DNA of 64,000 nt, taken from contig NZ_JAQNDM010000002.1 in NCBI RefSeq assembly GCF_028368975.1, positions 5,946,425 through 6,010,424 of the forward strand, read 5' to 3'. Below are positions 39,304 to 44,293 of the stretch, piece after piece; the stretch's first letter is position 1, and every line of letters begins with the position of its first letter. The position numbers and the translations under genes are program-made. Source of the stretch: Stigmatella ashevillena. GTDB lineage: Bacteria > Myxococcota > Myxococcia > Myxococcales > Myxococcaceae. A model generated the notes under the pieces. It did no database searches, was not told where the DNA came from, and saw nothing but the letters and a program-made list of their open reading frames with translations.

Positions 39304-39795
39304 CTACTTGGCCATGTCGTCGTGCTGCATCGTCGAGTCCGGGTGGTTCGTCTCGGGGACGGTCTGGTCATTCATGGTGCCAGAGCCCCCCGTGCCGCCC
39401 AGATCATCCGCCGTGTTCGAGGGCGGGTTGGGATTCAGGTCGCCCTTCGTGTCCATGCTGGTGCCCTTCACATCCGTGCCGGTGTTGGGCTCCACAGGGG
39501 TGACTTCTCCACCCGCGCCCGCGCCGCCCGTACCCCCGAGATCTGCCCCGTTCTCAATGTCACGGCTTTGAGTGGTGTCCTCGGTATTCGTGCTGCCACT
39601 CGTGCTGCCCGGGCTGTTGTAGTCGCTCGCGCCCGAGCCGCCCGTGGCGGGCATCGGTGTCTGGGTCGCGGGCAGCGCGTTCTGGTTCTCCACGCCCGAG
39701 CCACCCATGGCAGGGTCCTGCCGGGGCCGATCCTGACATCCCGCCAACGCCAGCGCGGAGGCCACCGCGCCCAGTACCATCATTCGCTTGAACAT
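39304..39795 (-). CDS. Small Gly/Ser/Thr-rich lipoprotein
   Basis: The 163-residue product has a lipoprotein signal peptide (MFKRMMVLGAVASALALAGC). The mature part is disordered, low in hydrophobic residues, and repeats GGTGGAG/GGSG motifs (MGGSG, TGGSG, LGGTGGAGAGG, LGGTGGSG). It is likely a flexible outer-membrane surface protein. Function unknown. Confidence 0.7.
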   Translation of the reverse strand: MFKRMMVLGAVASALALAGCQDRPRQDPAMGGSGVENQNALPATQTPMPATGGSGASDYNSPGSTSGSTNTEDTTQSRDIENGADLGGTGGAGAGGEVTPVEPNTGTDVKGTSMDTKGDLNPNPPSNTADDLGGTGGSGTMNDQTVPETNHPDSTMQHDDMAK

Positions 39796-39947
39796 GTGCC
39801 TACCTCCCAATGGGATTGGAGTTACCCTTGAAGGTTTGGGTTGCTCCGGCCAGAAGGCATCGGTTTGCCCAGGAGCCTCGTCCGCAGGGCTCCGATGCAG
39901 GCGGGCAGGGGAGGGGAGGCGCTCCTGGAGGTAGGCAGGGGTCGGCG

Positions 39948-40838
39948 TCAACGCCGACGCCGCATGACCATCATGGCGTATTGAAGCCCGCCATCCAGCA
40001 GCCCCTGCTGAAGCCGCAGGTGCTCGCGCTGGGAGACCGAGCGCGGGGTGACTCGCGAGCCCCGTGAGGGCTGGGCCTCCTGCTCGCGCGCGAGCAGATC
40101 CATGGTCAACGTCCAGAAGTTCACCGTGCGGTAGGCCAGGTCCTGGTAGAGCTCGAGTTCCAGTCCCGCCAGGCTCGCCGCGCGGAGGTACTCGTCCGTG
40201 GTGCCAAGCCGCGTGTGCCAGTACCGGTTGAAGGGCGCCGCCAGCTCTGGGCGCCCGAGGAAGCAGTCCACGAGCAGCAGCGTGCCTCCGGGCCGCAGCA
40301 GCCGGTGCACCTGGTGGAACCAGGCCTGGCGGGGCAGGTAGCACGAGCTCTCCACCGCCACCACGCGGTCGAAGTAGTCCCGCCCTGGGACTTCCAGGGC
40401 GTCGCACAGCAGCACCCGCACCCGGTCCGAGGCGCCCACCTGGGCCGCGAAGCGCTGAATCCACGGAACGTGTGAGGGCGCGATGGTGACGGCCGTCATC
40501 TGGGCCCGGTGCTCGGTGGCCCAGTACAGCGAGCTGCCGCCCAGTCCACAGCCCACGTCCATCACCCGCTTGCCCGCCCAGGACTCGCCCACCGCGTAGG
40601 ACATCTCGCGCAGCAGCACCTCCTGCGCGTCGTGGATGCGCACCCGCAGCGCCTGCTCCGTCATCCCCGGAGGCGGCATGTCGTCCACCAGCCCCGTGTG
40701 GTAGTGCACCCGGGGCCCCGGGCCGTAGCGGCGCAGGATGCTCTCCGTCTTGGCGTCGTAATACGAGACGACATCGCCTGACGGCTCGCGCACCGCGGGG
40801 GATGAGCTGATGAGCTTGAGCGCGGGGTTGACGTTCAT
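39948..40838 (-). CDS. SAM-dependent methyltransferase, isoprenoid-type candidate
   Basis: The 296-residue protein has a class I SAM fold with the glycine-rich motif VMDVGCGLGGSS at 92-103, TAVTIAPSHV, and LLRPGGTLLLVDCF. The N-terminal YYDAKTESILRRYGPGPRVH resembles small-molecule C-methyltransferases acting on prenyl diphosphates or sterol-like lipids. It overlaps the isoprenoid synthase gene by 4 bp, supporting a shared pathway where a prenyl chain is made or transferred and methylated. The substrate is inferred from context. Confidence 0.78.
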   Translation of the reverse strand: MNVNPALKLISSSPAVREPSGDVVSYYDAKTESILRRYGPGPRVHYHTGLVDDMPPPGMTEQALRVRIHDAQEVLLREMSYAVGESWAGKRVMDVGCGLGGSSLYWATEHRAQMTAVTIAPSHVPWIQRFAAQVGASDRVRVLLCDALEVPGRDYFDRVVAVESSCYLPRQAWFHQVHRLLRPGGTLLLVDCFLGRPELAAPFNRYWHTRLGTTDEYLRAASLAGLELELYQDLAYRTVNFWTLTMDLLAREQEAQPSRGSRVTPRSVSQREHLRLQQGLLDGGLQYAMMVMRRRR

Positions 40839-41563
40839 GGCACGACCTCCTGAAGAATCGGTTCGATGCGACGCAGCGCCGAGTCCAGGCACCGCAACCC
40901 CTGTGCCCGCACCCGCTCCACCGCGGCCTGTGCCCAGCGCATCACCTCGCGCTGATCCACCTCGGACATGCTGAAGAAGCGCAAGTCCCGGCTGCGGATG
41001 TCCTCGGCCACATGGGCGGCGATGCCCAGCCCGTAGCCCACCGTGGCCTGGGACTCCAGCCGCGTCCCTGCCCACAGCAGGTGCAGGTACGCGGCCCATT
41101 GCTGGCCGGCGAGCCCTTCGGCCACCTGTTGGAAGAGCGGCGCTGTCCACTGGCGCGTGCGCACCTCCAGCGCCTGGGGGCCCGCGGCCATCACCAGCCC
41201 TCGCGCGGCCTCCGCCATCACCCGCTCGGACAGCTCGGCCTGCGCCAGGATGGCCCACGCCAGGTTCTGCAGCAGGAACTGCACGTAGGGCCCGACCCGC
41301 GCCGGTTCCTCGTAATAGCTGCACTCCCCATCGCACAGGTCGTCCGCGAGGTTGCCCGCGGCGAAGCCCAGGAAGATGCCCACCGCACGGGGCAGCAGCA
41401 GCTCGCGCCGCAGGCCTGCCTCCGTGCCTGCCTCGTACAGCAGCACCAGCGGGCCTGGTTGCGCGGCCTCCAGGGCCATCACGACATCGCGCTCGGCCGC
41501 CGCGGGCAGCGACTGGCGCCGCAGCGTGCGCAGCGTCTCCTGGTAGATGACGCCGGCGCTCAT
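40835..41563 (-). CDS. Class I isoprenoid synthase-like protein
   Basis: The 242-residue helical protein has an aspartate-rich motif NLADDLCDGE (Asp74, Asp75, Asp78) and a second acidic motif AEDIRSRD at 186-193, the two magnesium-binding sites of the prenyl-transferase/terpene-synthase superfamily. It is shorter than typical polyprenyl synthases and similar in size to ComQ-type peptide prenyltransferases. It is sandwiched between the histidine kinase (4-bp overlap) and the methyltransferase (4-bp overlap). Whether it makes, cyclises or transfers an isoprenoid cannot be decided here. Confidence 0.72.
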   Translation of the reverse strand: MSAGVIYQETLRTLRRQSLPAAAERDVVMALEAAQPGPLVLLYEAGTEAGLRRELLLPRAVGIFLGFAAGNLADDLCDGECSYYEEPARVGPYVQFLLQNLAWAILAQAELSERVMAEAARGLVMAAGPQALEVRTRQWTAPLFQQVAEGLAGQQWAAYLHLLWAGTRLESQATVGYGLGIAAHVAEDIRSRDLRFFSMSEVDQREVMRWAQAAVERVRAQGLRCLDSALRRIEPILQEVVP

Positions 41564-42915
41564 CGCTGGAACTCCTGGGGCAGCAGCACGCGCAGCACCG
41601 CGCCCCCGGACTGCGCGTTCTGCCACTCCAGCAGGCCTCCACTGGAGCGGATGAGGCACTCGCTGGTGTACAGCCCCCGCTCCGTGCCTGGGGGCTTGGG
41701 GACTGGAGGCGCCGGGACGTGCTCCTGGAACTGCTCCGGAGAAATCCCCGGCCCATCATCCGAGATGATCATCTCGAGCCTCCCACTGTAGATTTCGGTA
41801 CGGGCGGTGATGTGCACCCGCCGGGCGGCGCGCGGGCCTTCCCGCTCGCACGCGTTGGTGACGAGGTTCTCCACCACCCGGCGCAACGTGGTGGTGCCGC
41901 CGCGCACCAGGGCCCGCAGCGGCTCGGCGCGGTTCACATCCACGTGGATGTCCACGCCCGGGTAGCGCACGCCCAGGCTCTGCCGGACCGAGTCCAGCAC
42001 GGACACCAGGTCCACGGCCTCCGGATCGCTGCCCATGAAGCGGCGGCTCTTCTGGCGGATGTCCACCACGCGCTCGCGCATGGAGGCGAGCTGCTCCTGG
42101 AGTTGGCGCACGAGCGCGTCGTACTCCGCGCGGCTCGCCGGGCCCCGGGGGCCGCCCACCACCCGGAGCATGTCCGCGGCGGCGCCCGCCGTGAGCAGCC
42201 CCGTGTGGAGTTCTTGGGTGTGGTGGAGCACCTCGGTGAGCGCCTGGGACAGTCGGCCCACGTCGCGCTCCTGGTGCTCCAGCATCTGTGCCTGGACGGC
42301 GTCGTGCAGCCGCTCCGCCTCGGCGCGGACCTGATCATGGCGCACGGTGAAGGTGCCCAGGTACAGCTCGGCGAGCAGGGCCGACGGGCCGATGACGGCA
42401 AACAGGGCCAGGTGCTCGCGGCTGCTGGCGAAGGTGGCCGCCAGCCCCATTGCCAGCGCCGTGCCCACGGCGAGGAAGGGGGTGTGCAGGGTGACGCGGA
42501 ACAGCTGGCCATGGAAGGCGGCGGTGAAGAGCAGCAGGCCGCCGAAGGCGGTGGCACCCCCCAGGGCCGAGAGCGCCATCAGGCCCGCCAGGAAGAACTG
42601 GAGGCCCGTGGTGCCCACGAGCGCCAACACCCAGCCCCAGGTCTGGATGGGCGGGTGGCGGCGGTGCAGCAGGGCAAAGCCGAAGTCCAGCAGCGCCGGC
42701 AGGAAGCACAGCAGCGCGCTGCCCAGGGGCAGGGCAAAGAGCGCGTCCGCTCCGGGGGCCCAGTGGATGGCCGCGAGCATCACCCCCACCAGCGCGAAGA
42801 GCACCAGCCATGAGTTCATGCTGCTGGCCTCCAGCACCTGGGCGGGTTGCTGCTCCCGCACCCAGCGCGCGAAGGCCCCCTGGACGGTGGCGCGCATGGA
42901 AGCCCAGGGGCTCAT
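41560..42915 (-). CDS. Membrane-embedded sensor histidine kinase
   Basis: The 451-residue protein has about six hydrophobic helices (35-200), then a long helix with an atypical phosphoacceptor region (RDVGRLSQALTEVLHHTQEL; no HExxxP box). The HATPase domain shows N-box LRRVVENLVTNACE, G1 DDGPGIS and a degenerate G2 region GTERGLYTSE. Multi-spanning input domains of this kind sense lipophilic or membrane ligands, as in ComP. No response regulator gene is adjacent. It overlaps both operon neighbours by 4 bp. Confidence 0.82.
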   Translation of the reverse strand: MSPWASMRATVQGAFARWVREQQPAQVLEASSMNSWLVLFALVGVMLAAIHWAPGADALFALPLGSALLCFLPALLDFGFALLHRRHPPIQTWGWVLALVGTTGLQFFLAGLMALSALGGATAFGGLLLFTAAFHGQLFRVTLHTPFLAVGTALAMGLAATFASSREHLALFAVIGPSALLAELYLGTFTVRHDQVRAEAERLHDAVQAQMLEHQERDVGRLSQALTEVLHHTQELHTGLLTAGAAADMLRVVGGPRGPASRAEYDALVRQLQEQLASMRERVVDIRQKSRRFMGSDPEAVDLVSVLDSVRQSLGVRYPGVDIHVDVNRAEPLRALVRGGTTTLRRVVENLVTNACEREGPRAARRVHITARTEIYSGRLEMIISDDGPGISPEQFQEHVPAPPVPKPPGTERGLYTSECLIRSSGGLLEWQNAQSGGAVLRVLLPQEFQR

Positions 42916-43211
42916 ACGGCGGTGACGACCAGGCTCGGGGGCAGCGCCCTGCTCTCTTCGAGCACCTGCTCCGCCAGGGCGTTGAGTTCCTCGACGATGT
43001 CCGCTTGTCCAGCGCGTGTGATGCGCACCTCCACCTCTCCGCCCGCCAGCACGTGGTGGAGCGCCTCCAGCACCGGGTGGATGTGGGGGCTGAACGTCAG
43101 GCTCATCCCGGAGCCTTCGATGGCGCCCAGCGCCTGCAAGCGCTGGAGGTACGTGCCCACGGAGGGGGTGAAAGACAATGGAACGACGAGGCCCTTTTGA
43201 CCGTTGCTCAT
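42912..43211 (-). CDS. 99-residue protein of unknown function
   Basis: The start at MSNGQKGLVV is chosen; an in-frame ATG 39 bp upstream is less likely. The product has an alternating beta/alpha pattern (LVVPLSFTPSVGTYLQRLQA; GSGMSLTFSPHIHPVLEALH; GEVEVRITRAG), no signal and no known motif. It overlaps the kinase gene by 4 bp, so it is made in step with it and may be a cytoplasmic modulator of the kinase. Confidence 0.65.
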   Translation of the reverse strand: MSNGQKGLVVPLSFTPSVGTYLQRLQALGAIEGSGMSLTFSPHIHPVLEALHHVLAGGEVEVRITRAGQADIVEELNALAEQVLEESRALPPSLVVTAV

Positions 43212-43338
43212 GAATGTTCCCTTCCCGTCGCGCAGGTCCATGCGTGACAAGCGAGTCAGGCAAAGGCCTGCTCAGGAGGTGGGATGAATGAGAGGGTTTT
43301 CGTGAAGGAGCGGCGTCTTCGCGGGTGCGGCGGACTGC

Positions 43339-43443
43339 TCAGCCAGGGTCATTGCGCGTGCGCGGCGGCGGACGCCGGACGGGAGACTCCTGGAACTGAA
43401 AACCCTGCCCATGTCCATGGGCGTGCAGCACTTGAGACTTCAT
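43339..43443 (-). CDS. 34-residue peptide at head of kinase/isoprenoid operon
   Basis: A short frame begins with ATG preceded by GGGGGGAG at a 5-base spacing, a strong ribosome-binding site. The peptide begins MKSQVLHAHGHGQGFQFQES and ends VRRPPPRTRNDPG. It is the first frame of the leftward operon, 127 bp before the 99-residue gene. Its position ahead of a multi-spanning kinase and a prenyl-transferase-like gene recalls pheromone precursors such as ComX, but it lacks the conserved Trp of ComX and any Cys. Translation is likely; a signalling role is speculative. Confidence 0.5.
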   Translation of the reverse strand: MKSQVLHAHGHGQGFQFQESPVRRPPPRTRNDPG

Positions 43444-43498
43444 GTCGACTCCCCCCTCGGATCCGGCTCAGACGGTGGTCTGTGTCAGATCCTTTCGT

Positions 43499-43520
43499 GG
43501 CAAAGGGTACCCTCCTTGCC
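43499..43520. promoter_or_regulatory. Imperfect palindrome in the leader of the kinase operon
   Basis: GGCAAAGGGTACCCTCCTTGCC is centred on GGGTACCC with GGCAA/TTGCC outer arms. It lies between the candidate promoter and the peptide start. It could bind a regulator or form an RNA hairpin. Confidence 0.35.
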
Positions 43521-43533
43521 ACAGTCATCCCTA

Positions 43534-43562
43534 TGAGAACCGATTGCTGATGGACAAGTCAA
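43534..43562 (-). promoter_or_regulatory. Candidate promoter of the kinase/isoprenoid operon
   Basis: On the minus strand TTGACT and TTCTCA are separated by 17 bases. The -35 box is close to consensus and the -10 box is weak. It sits about 90 bp upstream of the peptide start. Confidence 0.35.
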
Positions 43563-43600
43563 ATTCCCGTGAGGGTGCATCTGGACCTGCCGCGTGAGGT

Positions 43601-44293
43601 TCAGCGCAGCTCCAACGCCTCGGTCAGGCGCAGGGCCCGGGCCTTCCGGGCGCGCTTGCGGCTCAGCTCCACCCCCACTGCGTCCAGCCCCAGTGCGTTG
43701 GCCACCGCCAGCACCGTGCCGTGTCCGCAGAAGGGATCCACCACCGTGCGAGTAGGGGTGTGCTCTTGGATGAAGCGGCACGCGGCCAGACAGGCCCGCA
43801 CGCCCATGCCTCGCGTCCACGTCACCTCGCCTGCATCGGGCAGCACGTCCGCCGTGGCCTTGCTCAACTCCAGCCGCACGCCCCGGGAGAAACCCAGCAG
43901 GTGGGAATACGCAGGCCGTCCGAAAGTCACCGTCCCGGGCGGCCGTCGGCACACCACCTTGTGAAAGAGCATCTCACACCCGGCTTCTTCCGCCGCCCGG
44001 CTCACCAGGTAGCCTTTGTCCACCCACGTCCCCTCGTGCTTCACATCTGTCTGGTAGAAGAGGGTCACCCCCTCGGCGGGGACTTTCTCCATCACCAGGG
44101 CCGCGGCGCGCAGGAACCACTGCTTCCATTCCGTGAGCGAGAGCGCGGGGAACTCGGACACGTCCGGCAGCGACGTGATGACCGAGCAGCCCTCCAGCAT
44201 GCCCCGGCCCGAAAGCCAGGCCACCGCCTCCGCGCACTCCACCGTCCGGCGCCCCGGGGGGGTGGGTGAATCTCCGTCGCCTTGCTCCGCCAC
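43601..44293 (-). CDS. DNA-methylase-like SAM methyltransferase, GTG start
   Basis: The 230-residue product starts at GTG with GAGGAGG upstream. The C-terminal TRTVVDPFCGHGTVLAVANA is a SAM-binding motif I (DPFCGxGT) of the kind found in DNA and RNA N-methyltransferases, and ITSLPDVSEFP may stand in for the catalytic loop. The region from 60 to 130 is Rossmann-like (TLFYQTDVKHEGTWVDKGYL). No restriction enzyme gene is near. The nucleic-acid target is inferred from motif I only. Confidence 0.75.
   Translation of the reverse strand: MAEQGDGDSPTPPGRRTVECAEAVAWLSGRGMLEGCSVITSLPDVSEFPALSLTEWKQWFLRAAALVMEKVPAEGVTLFYQTDVKHEGTWVDKGYLVSRAAEEAGCEMLFHKVVCRRPPGTVTFGRPAYSHLLGFSRGVRLELSKATADVLPDAGEVTWTRGMGVRACLAACRFIQEHTPTRTVVDPFCGHGTVLAVANALGLDAVGVELSRKRARKARALRLTEALELR

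Follow-up and report, generated by a model that had tools for sequence, protein, structure and literature searches.

What does a myxobacterium make, or sense, with an isoprenoid-fold protein, a methyltransferase, and a membrane-bound kinase homologue encoded in one tightly overlapping block of genes? The question is raised by a stretch of 64,000 nucleotides from Stigmatella ashevillena (RefSeq assembly GCF_028368975.1, contig NZ_JAQNDM010000002.1, positions 5,946,425 to 6,010,424 of the forward strand), referred to here as the window. Its minus strand carries four genes that we call P2, P3, P4, and P5 in the order in which they are read. A preliminary description made from the nucleotide sequence had placed a fifth gene, for a 34-residue peptide, at their head, and had compared the set with the ComQXP quorum-sensing system of Bacillus, in which ComQ prenylates a signal peptide. 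On balance, we lean toward a different reading, in which the operon would make a methylated isoprenoid through a homoterpenoid-type pathway under a membrane regulator, with P5 acting before P4, P2 and P3 forming a module of their own, and the peptide excluded. Comparisons with known systems draw on four papers (PMC12929941, PMC5331326, PMC10853753, and PMC10881772).

A Probable Prenyl-Diphosphate Methyltransferase and Its Isoprenoid-Fold Partner

P5 (39948-40838, minus strand; 296 residues) carries the domains of a SAM (S-adenosylmethionine)-dependent methyltransferase by Pfam; in the NCBIfam scan, the other family search made of the window proteins, methyltransferase models stayed below cut-off. 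Its nearest solved relatives, matched over most of its length, are BezA (7FBH, E = 4.5e-52) and C6-FPP-MT (9TB4, E = 1e-49), both C6-prenyl-diphosphate methyltransferases of Streptomyces. We took the residues important for activity in this group from PMC12929941. P5 is like these enzymes in its catalytic Glu (E163, corresponding to Glu165/Glu170) and its Phe-Trp pair (F241-W242, corresponding to Phe243-Trp244), each kept in 38 of 38 P5 copies, and in its head-group aromatics (Y38 and Y46, corresponding to positions 37 and 45), which are both present in 36 of the 38. By these sequence features, P5 is likely a prenyl-diphosphate methyltransferase of the BezA/C6-FPP-MT type.

P4 (40835-41563, minus strand; 242 residues) is far harder to place by sequence. 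Pfam returned nothing above cut-off (the sole sub-threshold match was DUF4126, at E 0.066), NCBIfam gave no match, and searches of PDB sequences with both the P4 sequence and a P4 profile found nothing relevant. An AlphaFold2 model computed from a 34-row alignment has a pLDDT (predicted local distance difference test) score of 93.5, and its best Foldseek match is to a farnesyl diphosphate (FPP) synthase, at E 2.3e-5. Structural alignment with VIA-align gave Z 23.3 to 4wk5, with a root-mean-square deviation (rmsd) of 2.6 over 232 residues, and Z 22.9 to IspA (1rqj); the 50 matches listed span Z 20.8-23.3 and rmsd 2.5-3.3. ComQ is not named among those matches, an absence that carries no weight. 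The fold predicted for P4 is that of a trans-isoprenyl diphosphate synthase, and hence of a class I isoprenoid synthase. The first aspartate-rich motif (FARM) reads DDLCD at residues 74-78 of the window protein, and DDxxD is intact in 43 of the 45 loci of the family that were compared (the window and 44 relatives), being lost in L082 and L083. The second motif appears reduced to a lone Asp, preceded by Glu in all 45 loci (E187-D188 in the window) and by Ile in L113 and L114, two loci from another family.

P4 and P5 probably act in one pathway, because they are fused in two lineages and show joint decay elsewhere. The fusions, in which P4 and P5 form a single open frame, occur in the distant lineages of L077 and L113. 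Decay is seen in L082 and L083, where the P4 DDxxD is gone and P5 is without both aromatics (PDECFW, compared with YYECFW or YFECFW). It is also seen in genus g6, in which a P5 homologue is present in 16 of 16 genomes and P4 in none. In each of the three g6 loci read, P3 lies just upstream of P5 and Cys replaces the second P5 aromatic, and in two of them Gln replaces the first. In the Streptomyces clusters, too, terpene synthases are encoded adjacent to the methyltransferase, according to PMC12929941, as the isoprenoid-fold P4 adjoins P5 here. Unlike those clusters, the myxobacterial operon has in this position a 242-residue protein without a family model rather than a canonical terpene synthase, it adds P2 and a kinase homologue, and in two lineages it joins P4 and P5 in one frame.

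Conservation of the Operon

A homology search detects P4 in 45 of the 96 genomes of the family. A P4 profile finds it in 48 of 195 genomes of the phylum, 45 of them in the same family and three in another family of the order, and P4 had no match on plasmids at E 1e-3. The order P2-P3-P4-P5 is kept in the window and in 33 of the 44 related loci (34/45 counting the window). Seven of the other loci (L074-L076 and L078-L081) have P2-P3-P4 without P5, two (L082 and L083) have P4-P5 only, one (L077) has a joint P4 and P5 frame upstream of P2-P3, and one (L062) has P3, P4, and P5 with a recognizable P2 missing. In L062, tblastn does not recover P2, which seems to have an internal deletion. Of the three loci in the other family, L113 carries P2-P3 and then a single 523-residue frame that comprises P4 and P5, L114 runs through P2-P3-P4 up to the end of its contig, and L115 has a partial P4 only. 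This arrangement is more than chance, and since the core also occurs, in part, in a second family, the four genes are probably an old association.

The joints P2/P3, P3/P4, and P4/P5 in the window are each an overlap of exactly 4 bp. The packed, five-gene operon of the preliminary description therefore holds for four genes, with their three overlaps and conserved order, and falls short for the 34-residue peptide, which is without protein-level constraint. Loss of the neighborhood in relatives, which that description named as counting against its signaling idea, did not occur for the four real genes. No description of this operon was found in the open-licence literature, among the matches listed.

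A Histidine-Kinase Homologue without Its Phosphoacceptor

P3 (41560-42915, minus strand; 451 residues) has several hydrophobic segments and a HATPase_c domain (Pfam, E = 2.3e-11), with the NCBIfam kinase models below cut-off. With the predicted fold of P4, this bears out the pairing of a class I isoprenoid protein with a multi-spanning kinase, insofar as "kinase" is meant by homology. Compared with a functional histidine kinase, the window protein has Gln234 in place of the phosphoacceptor His and, among the ATP-site boxes, a degraded G2 (GTERGL) beside retained N and G1. In the phosphoacceptor column, whose placement an alignment with a solved kinase supports, 30 of 43 sequences have His, ten (including the window) Gln, two Glu, and one Asn. 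The window's clade does not conserve the neighboring histidines 231, 232, and 237, and L040-L042, the three closest relatives, lack the second Asn of the N box. With Gln234 at the phosphoacceptor position, a phosphorelay sensor is not supported in the window.

A tree of 46 P3 sequences, including L113, L114, and the g6 copy L116 (with the long branches L114, L113, L077, and L116 flagged), requires four changes of phosphoacceptor state, each of them dictated by branches with good support. They sit at the g1/g8 clade, to which the window belongs, at the clade of L050, L062, L067, and L071, at L072, and at L116, an operon without P4. His is present in L113 and L114, as it is in the g6 copy L118, and because both other-family kinases carry it the changes are read as losses, three of them in operons that carry P4 and the fourth in a locus that does not. 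The ancestor of P3 probably functioned as a histidine kinase.

The ratio of nonsynonymous to synonymous substitution rates (dN/dS) for P3 is 0.18-0.47 in all 16 pairs compared, pairs that share sequences and so are not independent, and indicates purifying selection. For the ATP domain it is 0.08-0.22 in the Gln pairs with intact boxes (L050, L062, L067, and L071) and 0.27 (window-L040), 0.44, 0.55, and 0.67 (window-L041) in the window's clade, where the relaxation is only modest, because His-bearing pairs, with a range of 0.09-0.41, reach 0.41. Since the phosphoacceptor was lost while purifying selection persists, P3 seems to have been kept for a role other than canonical phosphotransfer, and the best reading of its sequence in this lineage is that of a pseudo-histidine kinase. 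In this it resembles DivL of Caulobacter and a ChrS variant, in which architecture is likewise reported to outlive catalysis. Unlike them, P3 has no known partner kinase or regulator and has lost its His repeatedly.

Partners for phosphotransfer are scarce around the operon. A search of eight flanking window genes, which took in neither the rest of the window nor the genome, found no response-regulator domain. The seven g3 and g20 loci (L074-L076 and L078-L081) encode a receiver-like protein between a DyP-type peroxidase gene and P2; in the one copy scanned, PF00072 fell below the Pfam cut-off, and the acceptor-Asp column, judged by eye, has no Asp in any of the seven copies.

One might suppose instead that in the lineage of the window the operon is decaying, with relics for a kinase and a peptide region and with strong constraint on P4 alone. 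The lost His and G2 box, the ATP-domain dN/dS of up to 0.67, the failure to find the peroxidase in the window's own genome, and the far-decayed P4 and P5 of two Citreicoccus-like loci (L082 and L083) would all fit. Against this, dN/dS in the window's clade is 0.29-0.47 for P3, 0.08-0.35 for P4, and 0.23-0.38 for P5, with all frames open, and the His has been lost without loss of the gene in three P4-bearing lineages. We regard decay as unlikely, while giving it more room than any of the alternatives that follow.

P2 as a Possible Prenyl Acceptor

P2 (42912-43211, minus strand), a protein of 99 residues without a known family, is found only in genomes with P4. It occurs in 42 of the 96 genomes of the family, all 42 with P4; of the 43 loci with an intact P4 DDxxD, 42 have it. 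It is tied to P4, because P3 and P5 outlive P4 in g6 whereas P2 does not, and it may be related to P4 directly, either as prenyl acceptor or as a subunit. Its model has a pLDDT of 73 and no significant fold match, and a P2 profile gave four weak matches among PDB sequences, the best of them to designed proteins. The only invariant nucleophile-like residues are Tyr21 and His52. A winged-helix protein was considered, as some such chains were listed, and rejected at a best Foldseek E of 0.84 and a VIA Z of 3.6; a known leader-peptide family was also rejected, as neither Pfam nor NCBIfam gave a match at E 1.

The bond between P2 and P4 would be explained if P4 were a prenyltransferase acting on P2, or on some other protein or metabolite, with P5 methylating the donor and the lipidated P2 acting on P3. 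ComQ and PalQ are described as tryptophan/peptide prenyltransferases of the isoprenoid-synthase superfamily, the one to which P4 belongs by its predicted fold. Yet P2 has no invariant Trp or Cys and no recognized leader-peptide family, and it could equally be a partner of P3. Modification of P2 by P4 seems rather improbable to us.

P4 and Chain Elongation

The fold of P4 is nearest to those of FPP and geranylgeranyl diphosphate (GGPP) synthases, which raises the alternative that it is a chain-elongating prenyl-diphosphate synthase with a methylated starter. Its isopentenyl diphosphate (IPP) site, however, appears to have been lost. No P4 counterpart of GKRxRP, RRG, or KT is seen in one hhalign profile alignment with L111 (probability 13%, E = 5e-4); these three are motifs of IPP-using synthases, besides the FARM and the second aspartate-rich motif (SARM). 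A conserved PGPL stands where the site would be. Three PF00348 proteins of the same genome served as templates, of which L110 and L112 gave no usable alignment. In the one usable, weak alignment, the second aspartate-rich motif is down to its E-D, and the genome has those three other PF00348 genes besides P4. Elongation by P4 is decidedly improbable.

The 34-Residue Frame and a Probably Lost Peroxidase Gene

The frame that had been read as a peptide gene (P0001; 43339-43443, minus strand) is probably not a gene. It contains neither Trp nor Cys, matches nothing in Pfam or NCBIfam, and has a recognizable counterpart in just the three closest relatives of the window. In the other loci, what is read from this ATG is an unrelated sequence, which frequently continues into P2 or P3. 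A tblastn search found no match to it in 39 loci, an absence that counts little because 30 of the 39 are too short to reach the position. Between the window and L040, in a test confined to 34 codons and four sequences, there are two synonymous and 15 nonsynonymous codon changes, and changes fall on the three codon positions in the numbers 4, 7, and 8. P2 through P5, unlike this frame, show an excess of third-position changes.

Other loci suggest where the frame came from. In 13 of the 45 loci, a gene for a DyP-type peroxidase (P6, PF20628) is found close to where the operon begins, with frames of 271-314 residues in eleven of them and an E of 3.3e-22 to Dyp_perox_C in the one copy scanned. The start of this gene in relatives coincides with the start of the 34-residue frame in the window, from which the gene is absent. 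A conserved Shine-Dalgarno-like G-run and ATG context (43441-43460, minus strand) precedes the frame in the window and, in the alignments, the DyP gene in other loci, several of which have a DyP start with the same kind of context. Upstream of P2 in L056, the DyP gene is internally deleted, and its two ends adjoin and are still recognizable (~310 nt that begin upstream of the start and extend into the gene, and ~100 nt around the 3' end). In the loci of the window's genus and its neighbor (L043-L045), only the DyP start region is matched. The window itself has no DyP-start match at that threshold and is joined to L043-L045 by alignment, and its genome yielded no homologue of this peroxidase. 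Most likely, judging from these alignments, the 34-residue frame is the residue of a lost DyP gene's start and not a signal precursor.

Shorter DyP remnants are present in L052 and L064. A palindrome, CTGGT..GGGGGG..ACCAG, stands directly before the ATG of the DyP gene or its relic in part of L047-L073 and in L082-L083, and is gone in other loci and in the window's clade. It could be an operator or a translational hairpin; as it is lost in some relatives and in the window, nothing is concluded from it.

The origin of the frame bears on the ComQXP analogy. ComX precursors are 53-58 residues long and carry a Trp third or fourth from the C-terminus. The 34-residue frame is unlike them in having no Trp and no coding signature. 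P4 does resemble ComQ in its superfamily fold, its intact first Asp-rich motif, and its lone-Asp second motif (PMC5331326). By the same account, ComQ keeps only the second Asp of its second motif, in a pseudo-SARM of the form NDxxx or GDxxx in which the Asn or Gly is needed; the Glu or Ile before the lone Asp sets P4 apart from that description. Also setting it apart from ComQ and PalQ are the absence of a family-model match and the failure to find a Trp-bearing precursor. Unlike ComQXPA, the window has a kinase homologue with no phosphoacceptor His, and the flanking genes scanned offer no response regulator. That P4 prenylates the 34-residue peptide, P5 methylates the peptide or its prenyl group, and P3 senses the product is hardly credible and already largely refuted, since the peptide, which lacks Trp, Cys, and purifying selection and is limited to four close relatives, is accounted for as the start of a lost gene, the P4 motif begins with the wrong residue, and P3 has no phosphoacceptor; what stands of the analogy is the superfamily fold, the DDxxD, and the lone Asp of P4.

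Flanking Features

A search of 39700-43700 found neither a sigma-70-like promoter nor a terminator. A TTGAC-like element upstream of the operon is aligned across eight g1/g8 loci, an observation from the alignment only. Directly downstream of P5 is a small Gly/Thr-rich, lipoprotein-like gene (39304-39801) without a Pfam family, and starts similar to that of this gene come after P5 in L040, L043, and L046.

Proposed Pathway and Implications

The reading that we prefer, a methylated isoprenoid made under a membrane regulator, would work as follows. P5 would move a methyl group from SAM to a prenyl diphosphate, most likely to C6 of geranyl diphosphate (GPP) or FPP, as its homology and active-site residues suggest. 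P4, a shortened fold with a Mg2+-binding DDxxD, would then ionize the methylated allylic diphosphate, and quench, cyclize, or transfer the product without elongating it. The fusions in two lineages and the joint decay would be explained by work in one pathway. P2 and P3 may form a coupled membrane module that adjusts the pathway or signals how it stands; as P3 in the window's lineage lacks the phosphoacceptor His and an intact G2 box in its ATP site, any output there would be allosteric or pass through a partner. The 34-residue peptide would lie outside the system, as the start region that remained after loss of the DyP gene. A methyl-terpenoid had been among the products first proposed, and the nearest solved relatives of P5, as prenyl-diphosphate C6-methyltransferases, favor that proposal. 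What the comparisons show is the synteny, the predicted fold, the keeping and losing of motifs, and the selection, whereas the chemistry, the acceptor, the signal, and the output of the system are inferred.

Several observations weigh against this account. The assemblies behind the two fused frames are fragmented (L077 is an 8.5-kb contig of a metagenome-assembled genome), and a sequence error at the P4:P5 joint is therefore possible. Seven of the 45 loci (those of g3 and g20) have P4, P2, and P3 with no P5 in their genomes at E 1e-30; P4 is therefore not always dependent on the methyltransferase. Genus g6 keeps P3 and P5 while P4 and P2 are gone, and one g6 copy of P5, in L118, still has the first aromatic (Tyr). 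The loss of the IPP site is drawn from one weak alignment (probability 13%) and the conserved PGPL. Finally, P5 differs from C6-FPP-MT in having Cys192 at the position of His194, which is essential in that enzyme, the activity of H194A/N being below or nearly below detection in PMC12929941. The position is Val in BezA. With Cys192 in place of His, P5 is not assignable to the FPP-specific subgroup, and its methylation position and substrate are not fixed.

A bolder possibility, which we hold to be improbable, is that P4 founds a new prenyltransferase family that attaches a C6-methylated prenyl group to P2 or another acceptor, yielding a methyl-prenylated regulator or signal that is read by P3, a kinase repeatedly turned into a non-phosphorylating receptor. 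If true, Gram-negative bacteria would have arrived convergently at a counterpart of ComQXP to which a methylation step has been added. On the preferred reading, of a methylated isoprenoid under a membrane regulator, P4 would be an enzyme of the class I isoprenoid type that escapes the models of both Pfam and NCBIfam and that shares a frame, in two lineages, with what is probably a prenyl-diphosphate methyltransferase. The operon is carried by myxobacteria including Myxococcus and Hyalangium strains, and as it spans, within one set of orthologues, the passage from an intact kinase to a probable pseudo-kinase, the role that a kinase may keep after phosphorylation is directly testable in it.

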